Shown here: piece by piece, positions 26,107 to 51,165 of the stretch
How positions within the stretch are numbered: position 1 is the first letter of the stretch
How the letters are laid out: every line of letters starts with the position of its first letter
NCBI RefSeq assembly: GCF_000526395.1
Contig: NZ_JAFZ01000001.1
Location: forward strand, 992,001-1,056,000
Direction of reading: 5' to 3'
Source of the DNA: Aminobacterium mobile DSM 12262
Lineage (GTDB): Bacteria > Synergistota > Synergistia > Synergistales > Aminobacteriaceae
Length of the DNA stretch: 64,000 bases
Notes under the pieces: generated by a model
Database searches by the model: none
Seen by the model: only the letters and a program-made list of their open reading frames with translations
What the model was told of the DNA's origin: nothing
Program-made: the position numbers and the translations under genes

Positions 26107-26240
26107 GCGGTCTTCTCCGGGGGGTTCAGCCCTGTGCGGCAGATCCCCGTGAATTCTGTCAGGCCCGGGAGGGAGCAGCAGTAAGCGGAGTGTTCTGGGT
26201 GCCACAGGTAGCTGGATCTCCCGGAGAGGGCCGCTCTTTT
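26107..26240 (+). ncRNA. ffs: Signal recognition particle RNA (small bacterial type)
   Basis: The conserved domain IV is directly visible at 26157-26200: TGTCAGGCCCGGGAGGGAGC followed by AGCAGTAAGC and a matching GTGTTCTGGGTGCC. These are the symmetric and asymmetric loops bound by Ffh, closed by a GGAGG tetraloop-type turn. The ends pair: GCGGTCTTCTCCGGGG near 26107 with CCCGGAGAGGGCCGC ending near 26235, giving a long rod without Alu domain. The T-run 26236-26240 ends the transcript. It runs convergently into the stop of the CsoR-family gene. Confidence 0.95.
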
Positions 26241-42158: not shown

Positions 42159-42184
42159 GCTTCTCATACAAAAAAGCATGATAC

Positions 42185-42432
42185 GGCAATGAAAGGGAAG
42201 AGTATTCTCCAAACACACCTACAGAGAGAGAAGGCCGGAGGCTGAGAGTCTTCTTGGAATGTGAAGGAGAAGAATAGAACCCTAGAGCTGATCTCGAAGA
42301 AAGATCCCCATGGGGAATCAAGTAGAGATGTTAAGGAGAGGACAAAAGGATTTTCCCCTTTTGTCAACGTGGGTGGCACCGCGGGTTACAAGCCCGTCCC
42401 TCTTAAAAAGAGGGACGGGCTTGTTTGTTTTT
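42185..42432 (+). promoter_or_regulatory. T-box leader, arginine-type (AGA specifier)
   Basis: The T-box motif GGGTGGCACCGCGGG is at 42371-42385. Stem I shows AGTA (42201-42204) and TTCTCC (42205-42210) pairing with GGAGAA (42266-42271), then GAAT and the codon AGA (42276-42278). The base closes by AGGG with CCCT. By position the specifier is AGA, so uncharged tRNA-Arg(UCU) is the likely effector. The terminator is AAGCCCGTCCCTCTT / AAGAGGGACGGGCTT (42390-42422) plus TTGTTTGTTTTT. It precedes argG by 27 bases. Confidence 0.95.
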
Positions 42433-44647: not shown

Positions 44648-44848
44648 ATGCCAGAACGAAAACCGCTTACTACAAGGGGCAAGGTATTAGCCGTACTTAC
44701 TGTATTTGTCATGGTGGTGTTTAGTTTTACAGCCCTCGTTGGACGAGAAAAAGTAGGGCTCTTCTTTCAAGGTCGCCTGCGCTATTTTTGGATTGCAGTT
44801 ATTCTGGGTATTGGCTATTTTGCTACTCATGATAGGGGGAGAAGGTAA
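44648..44848 (+). CDS. Small unrecognised two-helix membrane protein
   Basis: This 66-residue protein is not recognised. It has two hydrophobic helices (about 13-29 and 45-60) separated by a basic stretch, and basic ends. AAGGGAG precedes the ATG with a somewhat long spacer, and a good promoter is present. It lies between the argG terminator and the exopolysaccharide-like operon. A role there is possible but only by location. Confidence 0.6.
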   Translation: MPERKPLTTRGKVLAVLTVFVMVVFSFTALVGREKVGLFFQGRLRYFWIAVILGIGYFATHDRGRR

Positions 44849-44971
44849 ACTCAGGGAACGAAGCATCCATTGAGAGGTCGTTTTTTGTTCACCATAGAGT
44901 TCGTTTCAGGGATATGAATACCCTTAAGTTTGAACATTAACATATGATTTCCTATCTACCATGTTCCGCCG

Positions 44972-45000
44972 TTTTAGCTTTATATGAAATATGTTACAAT
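44972..45000 (+). promoter_or_regulatory. Promoter of the exopolysaccharide-like operon
   Basis: Extended -10 TGTTACAAT (44992-45000) with TTTTAG (44972-44977) at 17 bases. Leader of about 100 nt contains a perfect palindrome AACTTGCAAGTT (45065-45076). Confidence 0.55.
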
Positions 45001-45104
45001 TTTGAGCGCATGGGTACGTTCTCAATTTTTATATAAGTGACTCTGCCTCTGCAGTGTCAGTATCAACTTGCAAGTTCCGATTTTTACATGGAGGTTCTAT
45101 CAGT

Positions 45105-47273
45105 ATGTTTTTGCTCAGAATAGCCTGTTTGGCGTGGGCTCTTTTATCGATAGCGACTTCTACTTTATATGGAAGCCAAAGTCTTTCCCTCCCTTCTCTG
45201 GCAGAGTTGGAAAACATGGTCGAACAAGGGCCAGAAGTTCTGTCTTCTATGGCGGCTTTGGCGCGGGATGAACATATAGAACACCTTGTACGTCAGAGAA
45301 GTGGCCCTAAGTTTTTTGCTGGAATATCTTATGGTTATAGCGATGAACCAGAGTCTGAAACCGCCGAAGAACGAATTTCCTATAATAAAGTTACTGCTCG
45401 AGCAGGCGTTTCCTTCCCCATTTTAGGTACATGGACCAAAGAGAAAATAGAGATCCTTCAAAGTGAGCTTCGAACTTTAGAGGGACGAATTTTGGCAGAG
45501 CGAACCAGAGAGATGAATCTGATTTCTCTTAGAAAGGCTTATATGGTCTTGTGGGGGGAGGGGCAGAAACGCCGTCTCTTATCTGATTTCTTGAAGAGTC
45601 GAGAAGCGACAGAGGCCCTCTTGTCGAAGAGGGTAAGAGAAGGGTTTCTTTTAGAGGCGGATCGACTGGAGTTTTTGTCTGTCTATGATGTAGCTCTTCG
45701 AGACGTGGCCGCTTCCTCTCGGATGGAAACACAGGCCCTTCAGGTTATTCGATTGGCTACAGGGCAGTCTTGGCAGGTGACCGAAGAAGTTCCATTCCCA
45801 ACTCTCCCGGGGTGGGATTATAAGAAGAGGCGCCCTTTAGGAGTGGCCCATCTCACTAATGTGAGATACAACAATAGAGTTTTGGATATTTATGGTCGCA
45901 TTCTCGAGATCACAAAAAAAATTGATCGGGATGGAACTGTAGAATTTGGTGCTACCGCTGGTCGAGATTTCCCTGGGACTTCCGGGGCAGGAGTTTCCAT
46001 CCGACTTACAGTAGAAGAACCCTTCGCTTCTTTAAGGGCAAAAAAGGATGAGGCTAGATTAGCTGCTCAAGCAGATTTAGAGCGACATAGAGCCGAAGAG
46101 CTGAAGGAACGCCTTCGCCTTGAAGGGGAGTTGGAAGACGCCTTATCTTTGCTGGAGTACGGTTCTCGATCTGTTCAGGCCGGAATAGCAAAAGTGCAAG
46201 CTTCCACAGAGGCCGTAAGAGTGCATCACCTCCGCTATGATCGTATTGGTGGAGATGCTTTTGAGAAACTTGAAGAGAGTCGCTATGCCCATCTCCGTGC
46301 TGCTCTGGAATTAGTGGATGCCCAAATACTGGTTCTTCAGGCTGCTTCTGAGCTGGTTCGTTTTTTCCCTGAAGGAGAGGTCCAGAGAGGATGTCCTTTA
46401 TCTATGCTAGGCCTTGATAAGCCTCTTGCGAGTTTGCCGAAGTCGCCAGTCGCAATGATTTCCTCTCCAGAGCAAGATGTTCAGACATCTACAATTCTGA
46501 CACCATCAAGGAAGAATACTTCAGTTTATGTGTGGAATGCGGCTCCCTTCCTCAAGAGCGAGACGAGGCATAGAGAACTGAAAAAACTTCAACAAGCGGG
46601 ATTCTGTCGAATATTGCTCTCTTTTGATGGACAGGAGATCCGCTCTTTTAGCACGAATAATTCCCGGTTATCTCTCATGGCCTTTTTAGAACAGGCAACG
46701 TACATGGGAATTCAAGTTGATCTTTTGCTTGGCGATCCTACCTGGATTTTGCCAGAGCATCGAATGGAGCTTGTTCAACTAATCCGTTTCTTTGCCCCCT
46801 TCCCTTTTAAGGGGGTTCACGTAGATTTAGAGCCAGATTCTCTTCCTGGTGCTGCGTCTAAGAGGTCTGAGCTTGCTCTGGAATTGCTCCAAACGTTGAA
46901 GGTTGTTCGAGATAATACAGATCTTCCTCTATCTCTTTCTGTCCATCCTCGTTATTTGGAGGGGGAGTTAGGAGAAATTATGGGGCGAGGGTTAGTGGCG
47001 TTGTCTATGGAGGACGTAGCAGTGATGTTTTATTCCACCAACGTGGATATGGTGACAGATCGATTTGGAGCCCTTCTTAAAAAATACCCGGATCTTCCAT
47101 TACTTTTAGCACAAAGTGTGGAGTCTATTTTATCTCCCCGCGAAAGCTATGCCACCTTAGGACGGGATATTCTATGGAGTCGAATTGCCTATTACAACGG
47201 AGTGTTCCAAGAAGAGAACTACCGGGGTGTGGTTGTTCAGGCTTGGAAAGATTATGAGGAGATGGTCCGATGA
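45105..47273 (+). CDS. TolC-like outer-membrane protein fused to a TIM-barrel glycosidase-like domain
   Basis: This 722-residue protein starts at ATG 45105 with GGAGG 10 bases upstream; residues 1-22 are a signal peptide. Residues about 30-420 have long helical heptads and short beta-like segments with internal duplication, as in TolC/outer-membrane efflux proteins. Residues about 470-715 look like a TIM barrel: SVYVWNA at the start, FKGVHVDLEPDS (Asp574, Glu576 as candidate acids), LSLSVHPRYLE and VVVQAWKDYEEM. This resembles glycosidase-like domains of secreted polysaccharide enzymes. The fusion is unusual. The stop overlaps the adaptor gene start (ATGA). Confidence 0.78.
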   Translation: MFLLRIACLAWALLSIATSTLYGSQSLSLPSLAELENMVEQGPEVLSSMAALARDEHIEHLVRQRSGPKFFAGISYGYSDEPESETAEERISYNKVTARAGVSFPILGTWTKEKIEILQSELRTLEGRILAERTREMNLISLRKAYMVLWGEGQKRRLLSDFLKSREATEALLSKRVREGFLLEADRLEFLSVYDVALRDVAASSRMETQALQVIRLATGQSWQVTEEVPFPTLPGWDYKKRRPLGVAHLTNVRYNNRVLDIYGRILEITKKIDRDGTVEFGATAGRDFPGTSGAGVSIRLTVEEPFASLRAKKDEARLAAQADLERHRAEELKERLRLEGELEDALSLLEYGSRSVQAGIAKVQASTEAVRVHHLRYDRIGGDAFEKLEESRYAHLRAALELVDAQILVLQAASELVRFFPEGEVQRGCPLSMLGLDKPLASLPKSPVAMISSPEQDVQTSTILTPSRKNTSVYVWNAAPFLKSETRHRELKKLQQAGFCRILLSFDGQEIRSFSTNNSRLSLMAFLEQATYMGIQVDLLLGDPTWILPEHRMELVQLIRFFAPFPFKGVHVDLEPDSLPGAASKRSELALELLQTLKVVRDNTDLPLSLSVHPRYLEGELGEIMGRGLVALSMEDVAVMFYSTNVDMVTDRFGALLKKYPDLPLLLAQSVESILSPRESYATLGRDILWSRIAYYNGVFQEENYRGVVVQAWKDYEEMVR

Positions 47274-48319
47274 AAGTGCGGTTTACTTCTGGGAAGAGTC
47301 GAGATCCCTTTCAGGAAAAAGGGGTACGAATTCCTTATGCTCCAGCTAGAAGAACTTTTCCGCGGTGGCGATGGTATTTTGTTGTGTTGCTGGTCTCTAG
47401 CCCCTTGCTGTTTTTTATAGCCAAGGTAAGTGTAGGGGTGTTTTGGGCTACATCTCCTGGGGTGATCTTTATGGAGAAAACCCCGATTAACAGCCCAACA
47501 TCTGGAGTTTTAATGGAGGTTCATCTTCGAGAAGGCCAGCATATAGCATTGGGAGACGTGATGGCTAAAGTAGCGGATCCTACGCTGGAGATGAAAAGAG
47601 CCCCTCTGACAGCAGAAAGAAAAGTCTTGATGGATTATGCGAGCCGTCACATTTCTACTGAACCCTTCAGGGATGCTTTGGTTTTAGCGGAGAGAGTTTT
47701 GAAAGAAGAAAAAGCTTATCGATCTAAGATTCAGGAACTTGTTAATGCTGGAGCAGCTACAAAGGCTGACCTCAACGAGGCTCAGAAGAGGGTACTTCGA
47801 GCTGAATCTGATGTGATTAAGGCAAAAATAGATCTGAATTTAGCATTGGCTCCCTCTGGAGAGTATAAATCTCAACAGGTTAGATTGGCGCAAATTGATG
47901 GAGAACTTGCTGCTATGGCAGATATTATGGGTGGGGTAGCTTTAGCGTCTCCCGTGTCAGGAGTTGTCTTGGCTGTTTTTGCTGTTGTGAACCAAGCCTT
48001 GGCTCAGGGGGCTCCTTTAGCGGTAGTGGCTGACCCTCAAACTGCATCTATAGTTACCTTCCTGAACCCTAAAGATCTCGGATTCGTAGAGAAGGGTAAG
48101 AAAGTCCGAATACGTTTCCCTGAAGGAACGATGGTGGAGGCTTTCCCTGTGGGGAGACCTACTCTAGCCGAGCCTGCGCCATTGTCTCTTTCAAAACCTC
48201 TGACAGAGATTCGTCAGACAGTACGGGTTACCCTCAGTACACGTTCTCCCATTCCGGAGGCCTTTTTGGTGGAGGGGCTTCCTGTAACTGTTCATTGGGG
48301 AGGGAGATGGCCGTGGTAG
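47270..48319 (+). CDS. HlyD-type membrane fusion (adaptor) protein
   Basis: This 349-residue periplasmic adaptor has a basic cytoplasmic N-terminus, one membrane segment (about 34-58), a split lipoyl-like domain (PTSGVLMEVHLREGQHI near 75-100 and SPVSGVVLAVFAVVNQAL near 225-250) with a coiled-coil hairpin between (about 115-200), and a C-terminal beta-barrel-like domain. It would bridge the inner-membrane synthase and the TolC-like protein. It resembles Alg44-type adaptors but lacks a PilZ domain. Overlaps both neighbours. Confidence 0.88.
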   Translation: MKVRFTSGKSRDPFQEKGVRIPYAPARRTFPRWRWYFVVLLVSSPLLFFIAKVSVGVFWATSPGVIFMEKTPINSPTSGVLMEVHLREGQHIALGDVMAKVADPTLEMKRAPLTAERKVLMDYASRHISTEPFRDALVLAERVLKEEKAYRSKIQELVNAGAATKADLNEAQKRVLRAESDVIKAKIDLNLALAPSGEYKSQQVRLAQIDGELAAMADIMGGVALASPVSGVVLAVFAVVNQALAQGAPLAVVADPQTASIVTFLNPKDLGFVEKGKKVRIRFPEGTMVEAFPVGRPTLAEPAPLSLSKPLTEIRQTVRVTLSTRSPIPEAFLVEGLPVTVHWGGRWPW

Positions 48320-49734
48320 TTGCTTTTACCAGTGAGGAAGGTGTCATATCTATGGAAGAGATCCGGCTTCTTCGGTTTGTCAACTGCGGCAATATTTCTT
48401 TTGCGCCTCAAGATGGGGTTATAGATGTAGATACGCTGGAAGATCTGGTTGCTAAAATACGATCTGTTCATGGAGTTATTCTAGATGGGGACTTTTCTAA
48501 AGAGACTGTTTTAATGGCGGTCAAGGAGATCAGAAAGATCCCAGAAACCTGTTATTTGCCTGTGTTTTGCTCTCCATCTCTGGATTCCGATTCTGCGCTC
48601 TTTACCGATGGGGCTATAAAGTCTTTAGATCAAGCTTGGGAAAAGACGGCAGATATGTGGGGGAAATTGAATGAAGTGGACCGGGGAAGCTTGGAGCTGA
48701 GCAGAGATTTTCGTCTTTTGGCCTATTTGGCTCTTCGACAAGAGGGACTGAATCCCTTGCTACAGCCTTTTACCTGCGACGCATATAGGTATCCCATTGC
48801 AGAGTTCTTGGGTGGTGAGAGCGAGACGAGGCAATGGCTTCGAAATTTGAGGGATAGAGGTTTGTTGTCACAAGGACCTTTGATTGACCGCATACGCTCG
48901 TGCCCCAAGTGCCAATGTACTCATCTCAATTATATCGACGTTTGCCCCAATTGTGGGAGTATCGATATTGTTCCCAAAGAGTTTATTCACTGTTTTACTT
49001 GTGGCAGGGTGGGGCCGGTAGATGATTTTCTCCAGGAGAATGGTTATCGTTGTCCTTTCTGTGGTACTCACCTTCGTCATTTAGGTTCGGATTACGATCA
49101 TCCTTTAGAGAGTTTTTTGTGCAACGATTGCGGACATAAATTCATAGAGGCCCATGTTGTTGTGGATTGCCTCAGTTGCCAAACGAGGTCAGATCCAGAG
49201 GAACTTCTCGTAAATACAATTCATGGTTACCGAATATCAGAGAAAGGGCGAGCTGCAGCTAGGGTTGGGTCCATTGATGATGTATATGCTCTTCTAGATC
49301 GGCTGAACTACGTTATTCCCGCGTATTTTAACCAACTTTTAGATTGGATGATTTTGTTGAACCGTCGCTACCCGGATCAAACTTTCTCTGTGATAGGTGT
49401 TCGGTTTGTAAATTTAATTCAGGTTTCCGAAAAACTAGGCCGTCATAGAGCTTCTCAAATTGTGGACGCATTAGCGGAGCGGCTTAGGCAGCTTATTCGA
49501 AATACTGATGTTACGACCAGGACAGCTACTGGTATATTATTGCTTCTTTTGCCTATGACAGATGAAGCAGGGGCATCTGTAGTGGGTGGCCGGATATTAG
49601 AGTTAGTCAATTTAGCAGAAACGTCACCTAAGCCCCAATTCCAACTGGTAGCATTCTCTTCATCTCAGAATATGAGAGAGGGGGAGAGCGCTTCATCTTT
49701 ACTTGCCAGAATTTTAGGGGAACTTGAGTCCTGA
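48307..49734 (+). CDS. Receiver-like, zinc-ribbon (TackOD1-like) and degenerate GGDEF protein
   Basis: This 475-residue cytoplasmic protein has a receiver-like N-terminus (about 15-110, with GVILDGDFSKETVL), then a region of six CxxC pairs (CPKC, CPNC, CFTC, CPFC, CNDC, CLSC; about 199-290) forming three likely zinc ribbons, as in TackOD1 output domains. The C-terminus (about 320-470) matches the GGDEF fold (RLRQLIRNTDVTTR, ILLLLLP) but where GGDEF should be it reads TATGI, so it cannot make c-di-GMP. It probably regulates or scaffolds the synthase. Start 48307 or ATG 48352; both have a plausible ribosome site. Confidence 0.78.
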   Translation: MAVVVAFTSEEGVISMEEIRLLRFVNCGNISFAPQDGVIDVDTLEDLVAKIRSVHGVILDGDFSKETVLMAVKEIRKIPETCYLPVFCSPSLDSDSALFTDGAIKSLDQAWEKTADMWGKLNEVDRGSLELSRDFRLLAYLALRQEGLNPLLQPFTCDAYRYPIAEFLGGESETRQWLRNLRDRGLLSQGPLIDRIRSCPKCQCTHLNYIDVCPNCGSIDIVPKEFIHCFTCGRVGPVDDFLQENGYRCPFCGTHLRHLGSDYDHPLESFLCNDCGHKFIEAHVVVDCLSCQTRSDPEELLVNTIHGYRISEKGRAAARVGSIDDVYALLDRLNYVIPAYFNQLLDWMILLNRRYPDQTFSVIGVRFVNLIQVSEKLGRHRASQIVDALAERLRQLIRNTDVTTRTATGILLLLLPMTDEAGASVVGGRILELVNLAETSPKPQFQLVAFSSSQNMREGESASSLLARILGELES

Positions 49735-51068
49735 TGCTAATACCTGAGCCGTTTTTCCAAATTATTGCTCTGGTTTTAGAAGCTCCTTTGGTCTCTGAGA
49801 CGTGGGAAATAATTCTCAGATTCATTCCTTTTGTCCTTTTTCTGGAAATGCCTGTCTATCTGCTAATTTTGATGGGAGTACTTCGTTACGGTTTACTTCG
49901 GATGAACGAAGTTCCTTGGAGAAGCAGTTACTATCCTTCTGTCTCCTGTCTAATAACGTGTTACAGTGAGGGAGAGGCGGTGCAACAGACTATTCGTTCT
50001 CTGTCCAGACAGTTATATCCTGGTCGGATCCAGATTGTGCCTATTATAGACGGTGCTGCGGCTAATAAAGAGACTTACAGTGCGGCTTTGTCTATGAAAG
50101 GCGAAGTGGATCGGCTTCCCAACCGAGTTTTAAAGGTGGTACCAAAGTGGCAAAGAGGTGGCAGAGTGTCGGCTCTCAATACGGGAATGAACTTTGCTGA
50201 TGGTGAAATAATCATGGCTTTGGATGGCGACACATCTTTCGACAATGACATGGTAGAACGTGCCACCAGACATTTTGAGAATCCCACGGTCGGATGTGTA
50301 GCTGGGTGTCTTCGGGTACGAAATGTGAGGGCCAGCTTAGTTACCAGACTTCAAGCGATAGAATATTTTTTCTCTATTCAGGCTGCCAAAACAGGACTTA
50401 GCGCTTTTGGGCTGGTCAACAATATCTCGGGGGCTTTTGGAGTTTTTCGCCGTTCCGTTTTAGAGCTGATTGGCGGGTGGGATGCCGGAACTGCTGAGGA
50501 TCTGGATATTACACTGCGAGTGAAGAATTATTTGGGTCGATATCATTGTTTTCGCATTGTTTTTGATCCTGAAGCCATGGGTTTTACCCATGTCCCAGAT
50601 ACATTTAGGGACTTTTTCAAACAGAGGCTTCGTTGGGATGGAGATCTGTCGTTTATGTACTTCCGAAAGCATTGGCGAACCTTTTCACCACGATTAGTGG
50701 GGTGGAAAAATTTTATAGCCTTGCTCTGGACAGGACTCTTGTTTCAAGTGGTGATGCCCGTGGTCGTTGTCATTTATACTGCGTATCTCTTTATAGCTTA
50801 TCCCTTGGGCGTTGTAGCTGGAACTATGGCTTTAGTGTATTTGTTTTACCTCGCGGCAATGGTGATTCTCTTCCTCGTTTTTGTCCTCCTACTCTCAGAA
50901 AGGCCGAGGCAGGACCTGTTACTGGTATTTTGGCTTCCTCTGGTTCCTATTTTTGCCTTTGCCAATCGAATTCATGGTGCTTTTTCAGCGTTGTGGGAGA
51001 TATTTGGCCTTGGACATCAAGATACAAATATGGCTCCATGGTGGGTTACCAAAAAGAGTAAATTTTAA
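49734..51068 (+). CDS. Processive family-2 glycosyltransferase (polysaccharide synthase)
   Basis: This 444-residue inner-membrane synthase is of the BcsA/PgaC/Alg8 type. N-terminal hydrophobic segment(s) (about 5-55), then a GT-A core: SCLITCYSEGE, VPIIDGAA (Asp), ALDGDTSFDND (DxD, about 164-166), TAEDLDITLR (catalytic Asp) and KQRLRWDGD (QxxRW). Four or so C-terminal membrane segments form the channel. All four motifs for processive synthesis are intact. Sugar specificity cannot be read. The start overlaps the previous stop (ATGA). Confidence 0.92.
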   Translation: MLIPEPFFQIIALVLEAPLVSETWEIILRFIPFVLFLEMPVYLLILMGVLRYGLLRMNEVPWRSSYYPSVSCLITCYSEGEAVQQTIRSLSRQLYPGRIQIVPIIDGAAANKETYSAALSMKGEVDRLPNRVLKVVPKWQRGGRVSALNTGMNFADGEIIMALDGDTSFDNDMVERATRHFENPTVGCVAGCLRVRNVRASLVTRLQAIEYFFSIQAAKTGLSAFGLVNNISGAFGVFRRSVLELIGGWDAGTAEDLDITLRVKNYLGRYHCFRIVFDPEAMGFTHVPDTFRDFFKQRLRWDGDLSFMYFRKHWRTFSPRLVGWKNFIALLWTGLLFQVVMPVVVVIYTAYLFIAYPLGVVAGTMALVYLFYLAAMVILFLVFVLLLSERPRQDLLLVFWLPLVPIFAFANRIHGAFSALWEIFGLGHQDTNMAPWWVTKKSKF

Positions 51069-51100
51069 GATTTGAGATGCCTGTGCTTTTGTATAGATGC

Positions 51101-51153
51101 AATAAAAGACAGGACAGCTCCGGAACGTAAAGATATTTTCTCGAAACTGTCCT
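51101..51153 (-). terminator. Terminator of the purine operon
   Basis: On the minus strand AGGACAGTT and AGCTGTCCT pair (one G-U) over a 25-base loop, followed by GTCTTTTATT. It lies 13 bases past purE, between convergent operons. Confidence 0.5.
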
Positions 51154-51165
51154 ATATTGTTTGCA

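Follow-up and report, generated by a model that had tools for sequence, protein, structure and literature searches.

Export of a polysaccharide through a TolC-type channel has until now only been proposed, for cyanobacterial cellulose: in Thermosynechococcus, XcsA, XcsB and TolC have been put forward as a tripartite route, which is unvalidated and whose genes do not lie in a single operon (PMC12430437). Here we analyzed a 64,000-nucleotide stretch of Aminobacterium mobile DSM 12262 (contig NZ_JAFZ01000001.1, positions 992,001 to 1,056,000; below, the window) that contains, at its positions 45105-51068 on the forward strand, an operon of four overlapping genes, denoted A, B, C and D. We propose, with a probability of roughly three in four, that it encodes a synthase-dependent exopolysaccharide system gated by cyclic di-GMP (c-di-GMP), in which a TolC-type channel and an HlyD-type adaptor take the place of the porin or tetratricopeptide-repeat (TPR) protein, and a periplasmic hydrolase is tethered to the channel. 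If correct, this would be an operon-encoded form of the TolC route, with the XcsA-XcsB-TolC model as the nearest precedent. With synthase, adaptor and channel encoded together, the locus offers a way to test whether the product of a polysaccharide synthase can leave through TolC. The genes and domains are listed below by window coordinates, strand, feature and basis.

45105..47273, +, gene A: signal peptide, TolC/OEP channel, disordered linker and barrel resembling glycoside hydrolase family 18 (GH18-like TIM barrel), 722 residues (open reading frame, AlphaFold model, homologues)
45192..46394, +, predicted TolC/outer-membrane-factor half of A, residues 30-430, four beta strands and four long helices (AlphaFold model, structural superposition)
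46506..47270, +, putative GH18-like (beta/alpha)8 barrel of A, residues 468-722 (model, superposition, motif conservation)
47270..48319, +, gene B: HlyD-family periplasmic adaptor with a single N-terminal transmembrane segment and a conserved cytosolic N-terminal tail of the form MKVRFxS..K.....G..V.Y...KR...RWYxIL (profiles)
48307..49734, +, gene C: degenerate receiver, TackOD1 zinc ribbon and degenerate GGDEF domain; an alternative upstream start, TTG 48295, is possible (profiles, model, alignments)
48358..48672, +, degenerate receiver-like alpha/beta domain of C, residues ~18-122 (model; full-length structural alignments with PleD and DgcR)
48700..49236, +, TackOD1 domain (PF18551) of C with CxxC/HCxxC zinc-ribbon motifs (Pfam; invariant Cys columns)
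49282..49731, +, degenerate GGDEF domain of C, with ATGIL in place of GGDEF (profile, model, alignment)
49498..49509, +, I-site RNTD of C, R398 and D401, with the third Arg, R429, at +31 (alignment)
49734..51068, +, gene D: membrane glycosyltransferase family 2 (GT2) synthase with two plus three transmembrane segments and DGD, ED and QRLRW motifs (profiles, motifs)

In the proposed machine, D would polymerise a sugar nucleotide on the cytosolic face and thread the chain across the inner membrane. B, anchored in that membrane, would reach across the periplasm to A, whose TolC-type trimer would serve as the exit of the polymer, and the GH18-like barrel of A, held in the periplasm on a linker of ~40 residues, would trim or clear polymer at the channel, a role filled elsewhere by AlgL, BcsZ, PelA, PslG or the C-terminal domain of PgaB. 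C would act as a cytosolic c-di-GMP receptor whose degenerate GGDEF domain binds c-di-GMP at the I-site and activates D by direct contact, with the TackOD1 zinc ribbon and the receiver-like domain serving for docking or input. The analysis itself establishes the gene set, the folds of the domains, the conserved motifs, the conservation of the genes together and the limits of the unit, from which we infer polymer production, export through TolC, activation by c-di-GMP, the task of the hydrolase and a HexNAc-type polymer.

Comparison with described systems

Xcs resembles the operon in combining a membrane GT2 synthase with an HlyD-like adaptor, a TolC-type channel and a hydrolase (the endoglucanase XcsC). 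It differs in that its synthase carries a PilZ domain, its TolC and its hydrolase are separate proteins, and it has no TackOD1/GGDEF receptor. Bcs also has a degenerate receiver and a degenerate GGDEF domain with an RxxD I-site in one protein, BcsE, serving a GT2 synthase; BcsE, however, has no TackOD1 domain, and Bcs includes PilZ on BcsA, BcsB and the TPR-porin BcsC. The operon falls outside both systems, as neither PilZ nor TPR domains were found in the four proteins and D scores far under the cut-off of the CelA cellulose synthase profile (32; cut-off 699). Pel shares with it a degenerate GGDEF protein with an intact RxxD I-site, the c-di-GMP receptor PelD, and a hydrolase, but PelD is a membrane-bound GAF-GGDEF protein, and Pel uses the glycosyltransferase family 4 enzyme PelF, PelG and the TPR/beta-barrel protein PelB.

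The synthase itself is closest to the poly-N-acetylglucosamine (PNAG) systems Pga and Ica. PgaC is the best named profile for D (TIGR03937; 157.7 bits, cut-off 422.3) and is likewise a GT2 enzyme without PilZ, and a periplasmic hydrolase-like barrel occurs in PgaB. Since the score remains under the cut-off, D lies near the PNAG synthases yet outside them; no PgaA, PgaB deacetylase or PgaD was found next to D, and PgaA and PgaB are not among the recurrent neighbours. The mixed-linkage beta-glucan system BgsBA of Rhizobiales resembles the operon in linking a c-di-GMP-activated GT2 enzyme with a partner gene, bgsB, whose product is a membrane fusion protein. We know of no fused TolC-hydrolase or TackOD1 protein in BgsBA. 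Unlike the separate receptor proposed here, BgsA itself binds c-di-GMP (PMC5567048). A search for a published description of this gene set or for a named system returned only the cyanobacterial cellulose review, and was thin on subscription journals. An initial annotation of this DNA had presented the operon as an unusual, unnamed system; no name for it emerged from this search, and its novelty is reduced by the Xcs proposal of a synthase-HlyD-TolC route with an endoglucanase.

Domain architecture and conservation of the four proteins

The initial annotation had assigned A as a TolC-like protein fused to a glycosidase-like barrel, B as an HlyD-type adaptor, C as a receiver/zinc-ribbon/degenerate-GGDEF protein and D as a processive GT2 synthase with DxD, ED and QxxRW motifs, and profiles, models and alignments bear out all four assignments together with the reading frames and coordinates. 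The Pfam OEP profile is matched by 41 of the 42 homologues of A (best E-value 5e-19; A alignments comprised 23-42 homologues). The AlphaFold model of A has a predicted local distance difference test score (pLDDT) of 90; its N-terminal half superposes on OprN, MtrE, TolC and CusC at Z-scores around 24 (22-25 over ~386 residues). In this model, the N-terminal half has the outer-membrane-factor (OEP) fold; A would assemble into a trimeric channel. A disordered linker (pLDDT <50 at residues 442-466) leads to a separate eight-stranded TIM barrel, the best matches of which, at Z-scores of 16-19, are Cwp19 (19), GH18 chitinases (16-18) and PslG (17). D574 and E576, forming a DxE motif just past strand 4, are invariant (42/42), as is M641 on strand 6 (42/42); Y643 just past strand 6 and W714 just past strand 8 are conserved in 41 and 39 of the 42 sequences, respectively. 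GH18 has its DxE, MxY and Trp at these positions, and the DxE is likewise paired when the profiles are aligned, weakly, with Lactococcus chitinase and chitinase A. Compared with the DxxDxDxE motif on strand 4 of GH18, the first Asp residues are replaced and the DxE is kept. We read the barrel as a putative GH18-like hydrolase.

B matches HlyD_3 (E-value 4e-13; 50.5 bits, cut-off 22.2) and HlyD_D23 (38.1 bits, cut-off 30). Its cytosolic N-terminal tail (47270-47375) is kept across phyla with the pattern MK[IV]RF..K.....G..V.Y...KR...RWYLIL, and would be a plausible docking element for C or D. Such a conserved cytosolic tail is unusual among adaptors.

The GT2 motifs of D are DGD (164), ED (255-256) and QRLRW (297-301), accompanied by two plus three hydrophobic segments. 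After PgaC, the next named profiles are an XrtG-associated family (95.8 bits) and NodC (90.4 bits). Together with the GH18-like barrel, the proximity of D to PgaC points to an N-acetylhexosamine-type polymer, which we offer as a guess.

C scores 220.5 bits against TackOD1 (E-value 1.8e-65; cut-off 32) and 26.5 bits, also over the cut-off, against Pfam GGDEF (E-value 6e-6); the pLDDT of its AlphaFold model is 89. When TackOD1 was described, as an output domain of archaea that some bacteria also have, its function was termed obscure (PMC5847659). The Cys columns of its CxxC/HCxxC zinc-ribbon motifs are invariant in the homologues. The N-terminal domain gives no Pfam receiver match; in the model it is a PleD/DgcR-like alpha/beta domain, and its phospho-acceptor position is not conserved. 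The top structural match of the GGDEF fold is PleD with c-di-GMP. The GG(D/E)EF motif of active cyclases is absent from all 43 aligned C sequences, and the I-site RxxD is kept in all 43, across phyla; the third I-site Arg (R429), at PleD spacing, is present in 40 and replaced by Lys in the other three. In a profile alignment with active cyclases, the RxxD coincides with RxTD and the lost motif with GGEEF. The corresponding three I-site residues of PelD are needed for c-di-GMP binding (PMC7112168), and BcsE, a degenerate receiver-GGDEF tandem, binds c-di-GMP through RxxD (PMC7439463). By analogy with PelD and BcsE, a lost GGDEF motif combined with a kept I-site would be the signature of a c-di-GMP receptor.

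Nine other GGDEF genes are present in the window's genome, and further ones in 28 of 28 other host genomes scanned. Legionellales hosts had been suspected of having no other cyclases, which a PF00990 search ruled out. The initial annotation was right that no PilZ domain and no active cyclase is encoded; the lack of c-di-GMP control that it implied does not follow, because the I-site of C is intact and the hosts have other GGDEF genes. Judged from these sequences, the operon is probably switched on by c-di-GMP, and the proteins annotated as 'diguanylate cyclase' at such loci are probably c-di-GMP receptors. If true, the TackOD1 proteins of bacteria would thereby gain a first function.

Distribution, gene order and alternative explanations

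To follow the operon among relatives, we surveyed 188 Synergistota genomes, detecting C by TackOD1 over its cut-off. C was found in 32 of them, and in all 32 the order is A-B-C-D, contig ends and frame breaks aside. Full-length A is present in 31 Synergistota genomes, all within the C-positive set, two of these copies being interrupted by a break in frame or contig. Scanning GTDB yielded 212 relatives of C, 80 of which were kept for locus analysis; all four genes are adjacent at 70 of these 80 loci, in several phyla. The other ten comprise five cut by contig ends, two Legionellales loci without A and three with the barrel of A alone. No other neighbour gene recurs across the set of GTDB loci. 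Co-conservation within Synergistota and across phyla argues that the gene set is more than a chance arrangement, and supports the initial annotation's reading of the four genes as an exopolysaccharide synthase-export operon in which TolC and the adaptor would replace the porin. The operon contains no TPR protein, beta-barrel porin or PilZ domain.

The operon is not confined to Synergistota but occurs widely in Pseudomonadota and Desulfobacterota. The order is A-B-C-D in Synergistota and related copies and C-D-A-B in, among others, Desulfobacterota, Nitrosomonas and Pseudomonas; the gene pairs A-B and C-D remain joined in both. A TackOD1 gene is present in 18 of 199 sampled genomes of Pseudomonas (the genus of locus L142), and the hosts include culturable Pseudomonas, Stutzerimonas and Nitrosomonas. 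A complete C-D-A-B module lies on the 29-kb mobilizable Aeromonas caviae plasmid pKAM329_3 (L164, 7857-13679), annotated there as diguanylate cyclase, glycosyltransferase, TolC and HlyD, which indicates that the polysaccharide system can move between strains. On balance we favour the view that these loci make up a class of synthase-dependent exopolysaccharide machinery in its own right, spread by horizontal transfer: a portable unit of four genes, present in several phyla, would supply every envelope component, from the synthase and adaptor to the TolC channel with its built-in hydrolase, together with a c-di-GMP receptor of the TackOD1 type. Among individual loci, an operon with genes close to those of Synergistota lies on a contig filed under the archaeon Methanomethylovorans (L093), probably a binning error. 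Three 'Bacillota' metagenome-assembled genomes (MAGs; L114, L121 and L137) have the operon including the TolC channel, which suggests that they are diderm lineages or misassigned. In the Rhodobacteraceae copy, galE follows the genes.

Several observations weigh against the proposed machine. The window copy of A alone stays under the OEP cut-off (17.1 bits; cut-off 22), an outcome that the initial annotation had named as refuting its reading; the homologues and the model decide the matter in favour of a TolC-like N-terminal half. The GH18 assignment draws on the fold and a few short motifs, the barrels match Pfam GH18 marginally (best E-value 0.011), and Pfam gave no match for the isolated barrel of the window copy. 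C, D and B occur without A in five lineages, namely two Legionellales (L106 and L147) and replicons of Plesiomonas, Photobacterium and Rhodobacteraceae (L165, L166 and L167), and the Rhodobacteraceae C has lost its I-site. At L144 and L150 (Pseudomonas) and L116 (a Synechococcus MAG), A is cut down to signal peptide and barrel, with the TolC half gone and C, D and B kept; these three are the only true barrel-only copies, as A is full length in many Pseudomonas copies that miss a 60-bit threshold. The A-less and barrel-only loci imply that the fused TolC is not always required or that TolC is provided in trans. From these arrangements C-D-B looks like the core, to which A was joined in most lineages, and a different TolC may take over in lineages that lack A. 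Finally, the link to polysaccharide is one that we infer for every homologue.

The same observations bear on three other explanations. The machine might be as proposed and C not be a c-di-GMP switch, control passing instead through the zinc ribbon or receiver in response to redox state, a metal or a protein partner, with RxxD as a structural relic. TackOD1 is indeed the most conserved part of C, and the genes persist in Rhodobacteraceae despite the lost I-site; a relic, however, is hard to reconcile with R398 and D401 remaining invariant across phyla while the adjacent GGDEF motif is unconserved, with the third Arg retained at its spacing, and with other GGDEF genes in every host scanned, and we hold this alternative to be unlikely. 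Quite unlikely, in our judgement, is that what the operon produces and exports is not a long exopolysaccharide but a short, NodC-like product, an oligosaccharide or glycoconjugate serving as signal or coat precursor. The NodC score of D, the possibility that a hydrolase on the channel determines product length and the frequent transport of small molecules by TolC-HlyD systems would fit such a product, but D has the processive QRLRW motif and the 2+3 topology, no acyltransferase or other tailoring gene recurs beside the loci, and biofilm polysaccharide systems are the ones that combine a GT2 enzyme with a hydrolase and a c-di-GMP receptor. That A and B have nothing to do with D and constitute an efflux or type-I-like pathway, with co-regulation as the only reason for the clustering, seems to us very improbable: B resembles drug and type I adaptors and some lineages do without the fused TolC, yet B always stays with C-D even where A is lost, A-B and C-D are joined in either order, and the copies have no recurrent neighbouring pump of the ABC, MFS or RND type. 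The c-di-GMP-gated exopolysaccharide system remains our preferred explanation.

Junctions, boundaries and surroundings

The initial annotation had described ATGA-type junctions throughout. This applies only to A/B, which share the ATGA at 47270-47273 as read from the sequence; B and C overlap by 13 nt, given a C start at ATG 48307, which is preceded by GGGGAGGG, and C and D overlap by 1 nt in TGATG. Comparison with a same-genus genome (G030) shows that the operon lies in a discrete accessory unit:

44849..51165, strand not assigned, accessory segment containing the operon (comparison with the same-genus genome lacking it)

At the empty site of G030, an open reading frame of 66 residues and purE are ~40 bp apart, with argG and a transporter gene in unchanged positions around them. 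In the window, this 66-residue membrane reading frame (44648-44848) forms the left edge of the segment; conserved copies exist in two congeners and in a further genome. We weighed it as a possible fifth gene of the operon and discarded it, since it is present in operon-free congeners and in no other operon locus. Promoter and terminator scans gave results no better than shuffled sequences. An Rfam search of the whole window found no c-di-GMP or other riboswitch upstream of the operon and returned only two elements, a T-box leader (RF00230, 100 bits) at 42180-42404, immediately 5' of argG (argininosuccinate synthase), and a bacterial small signal recognition particle RNA at 26123-26221.

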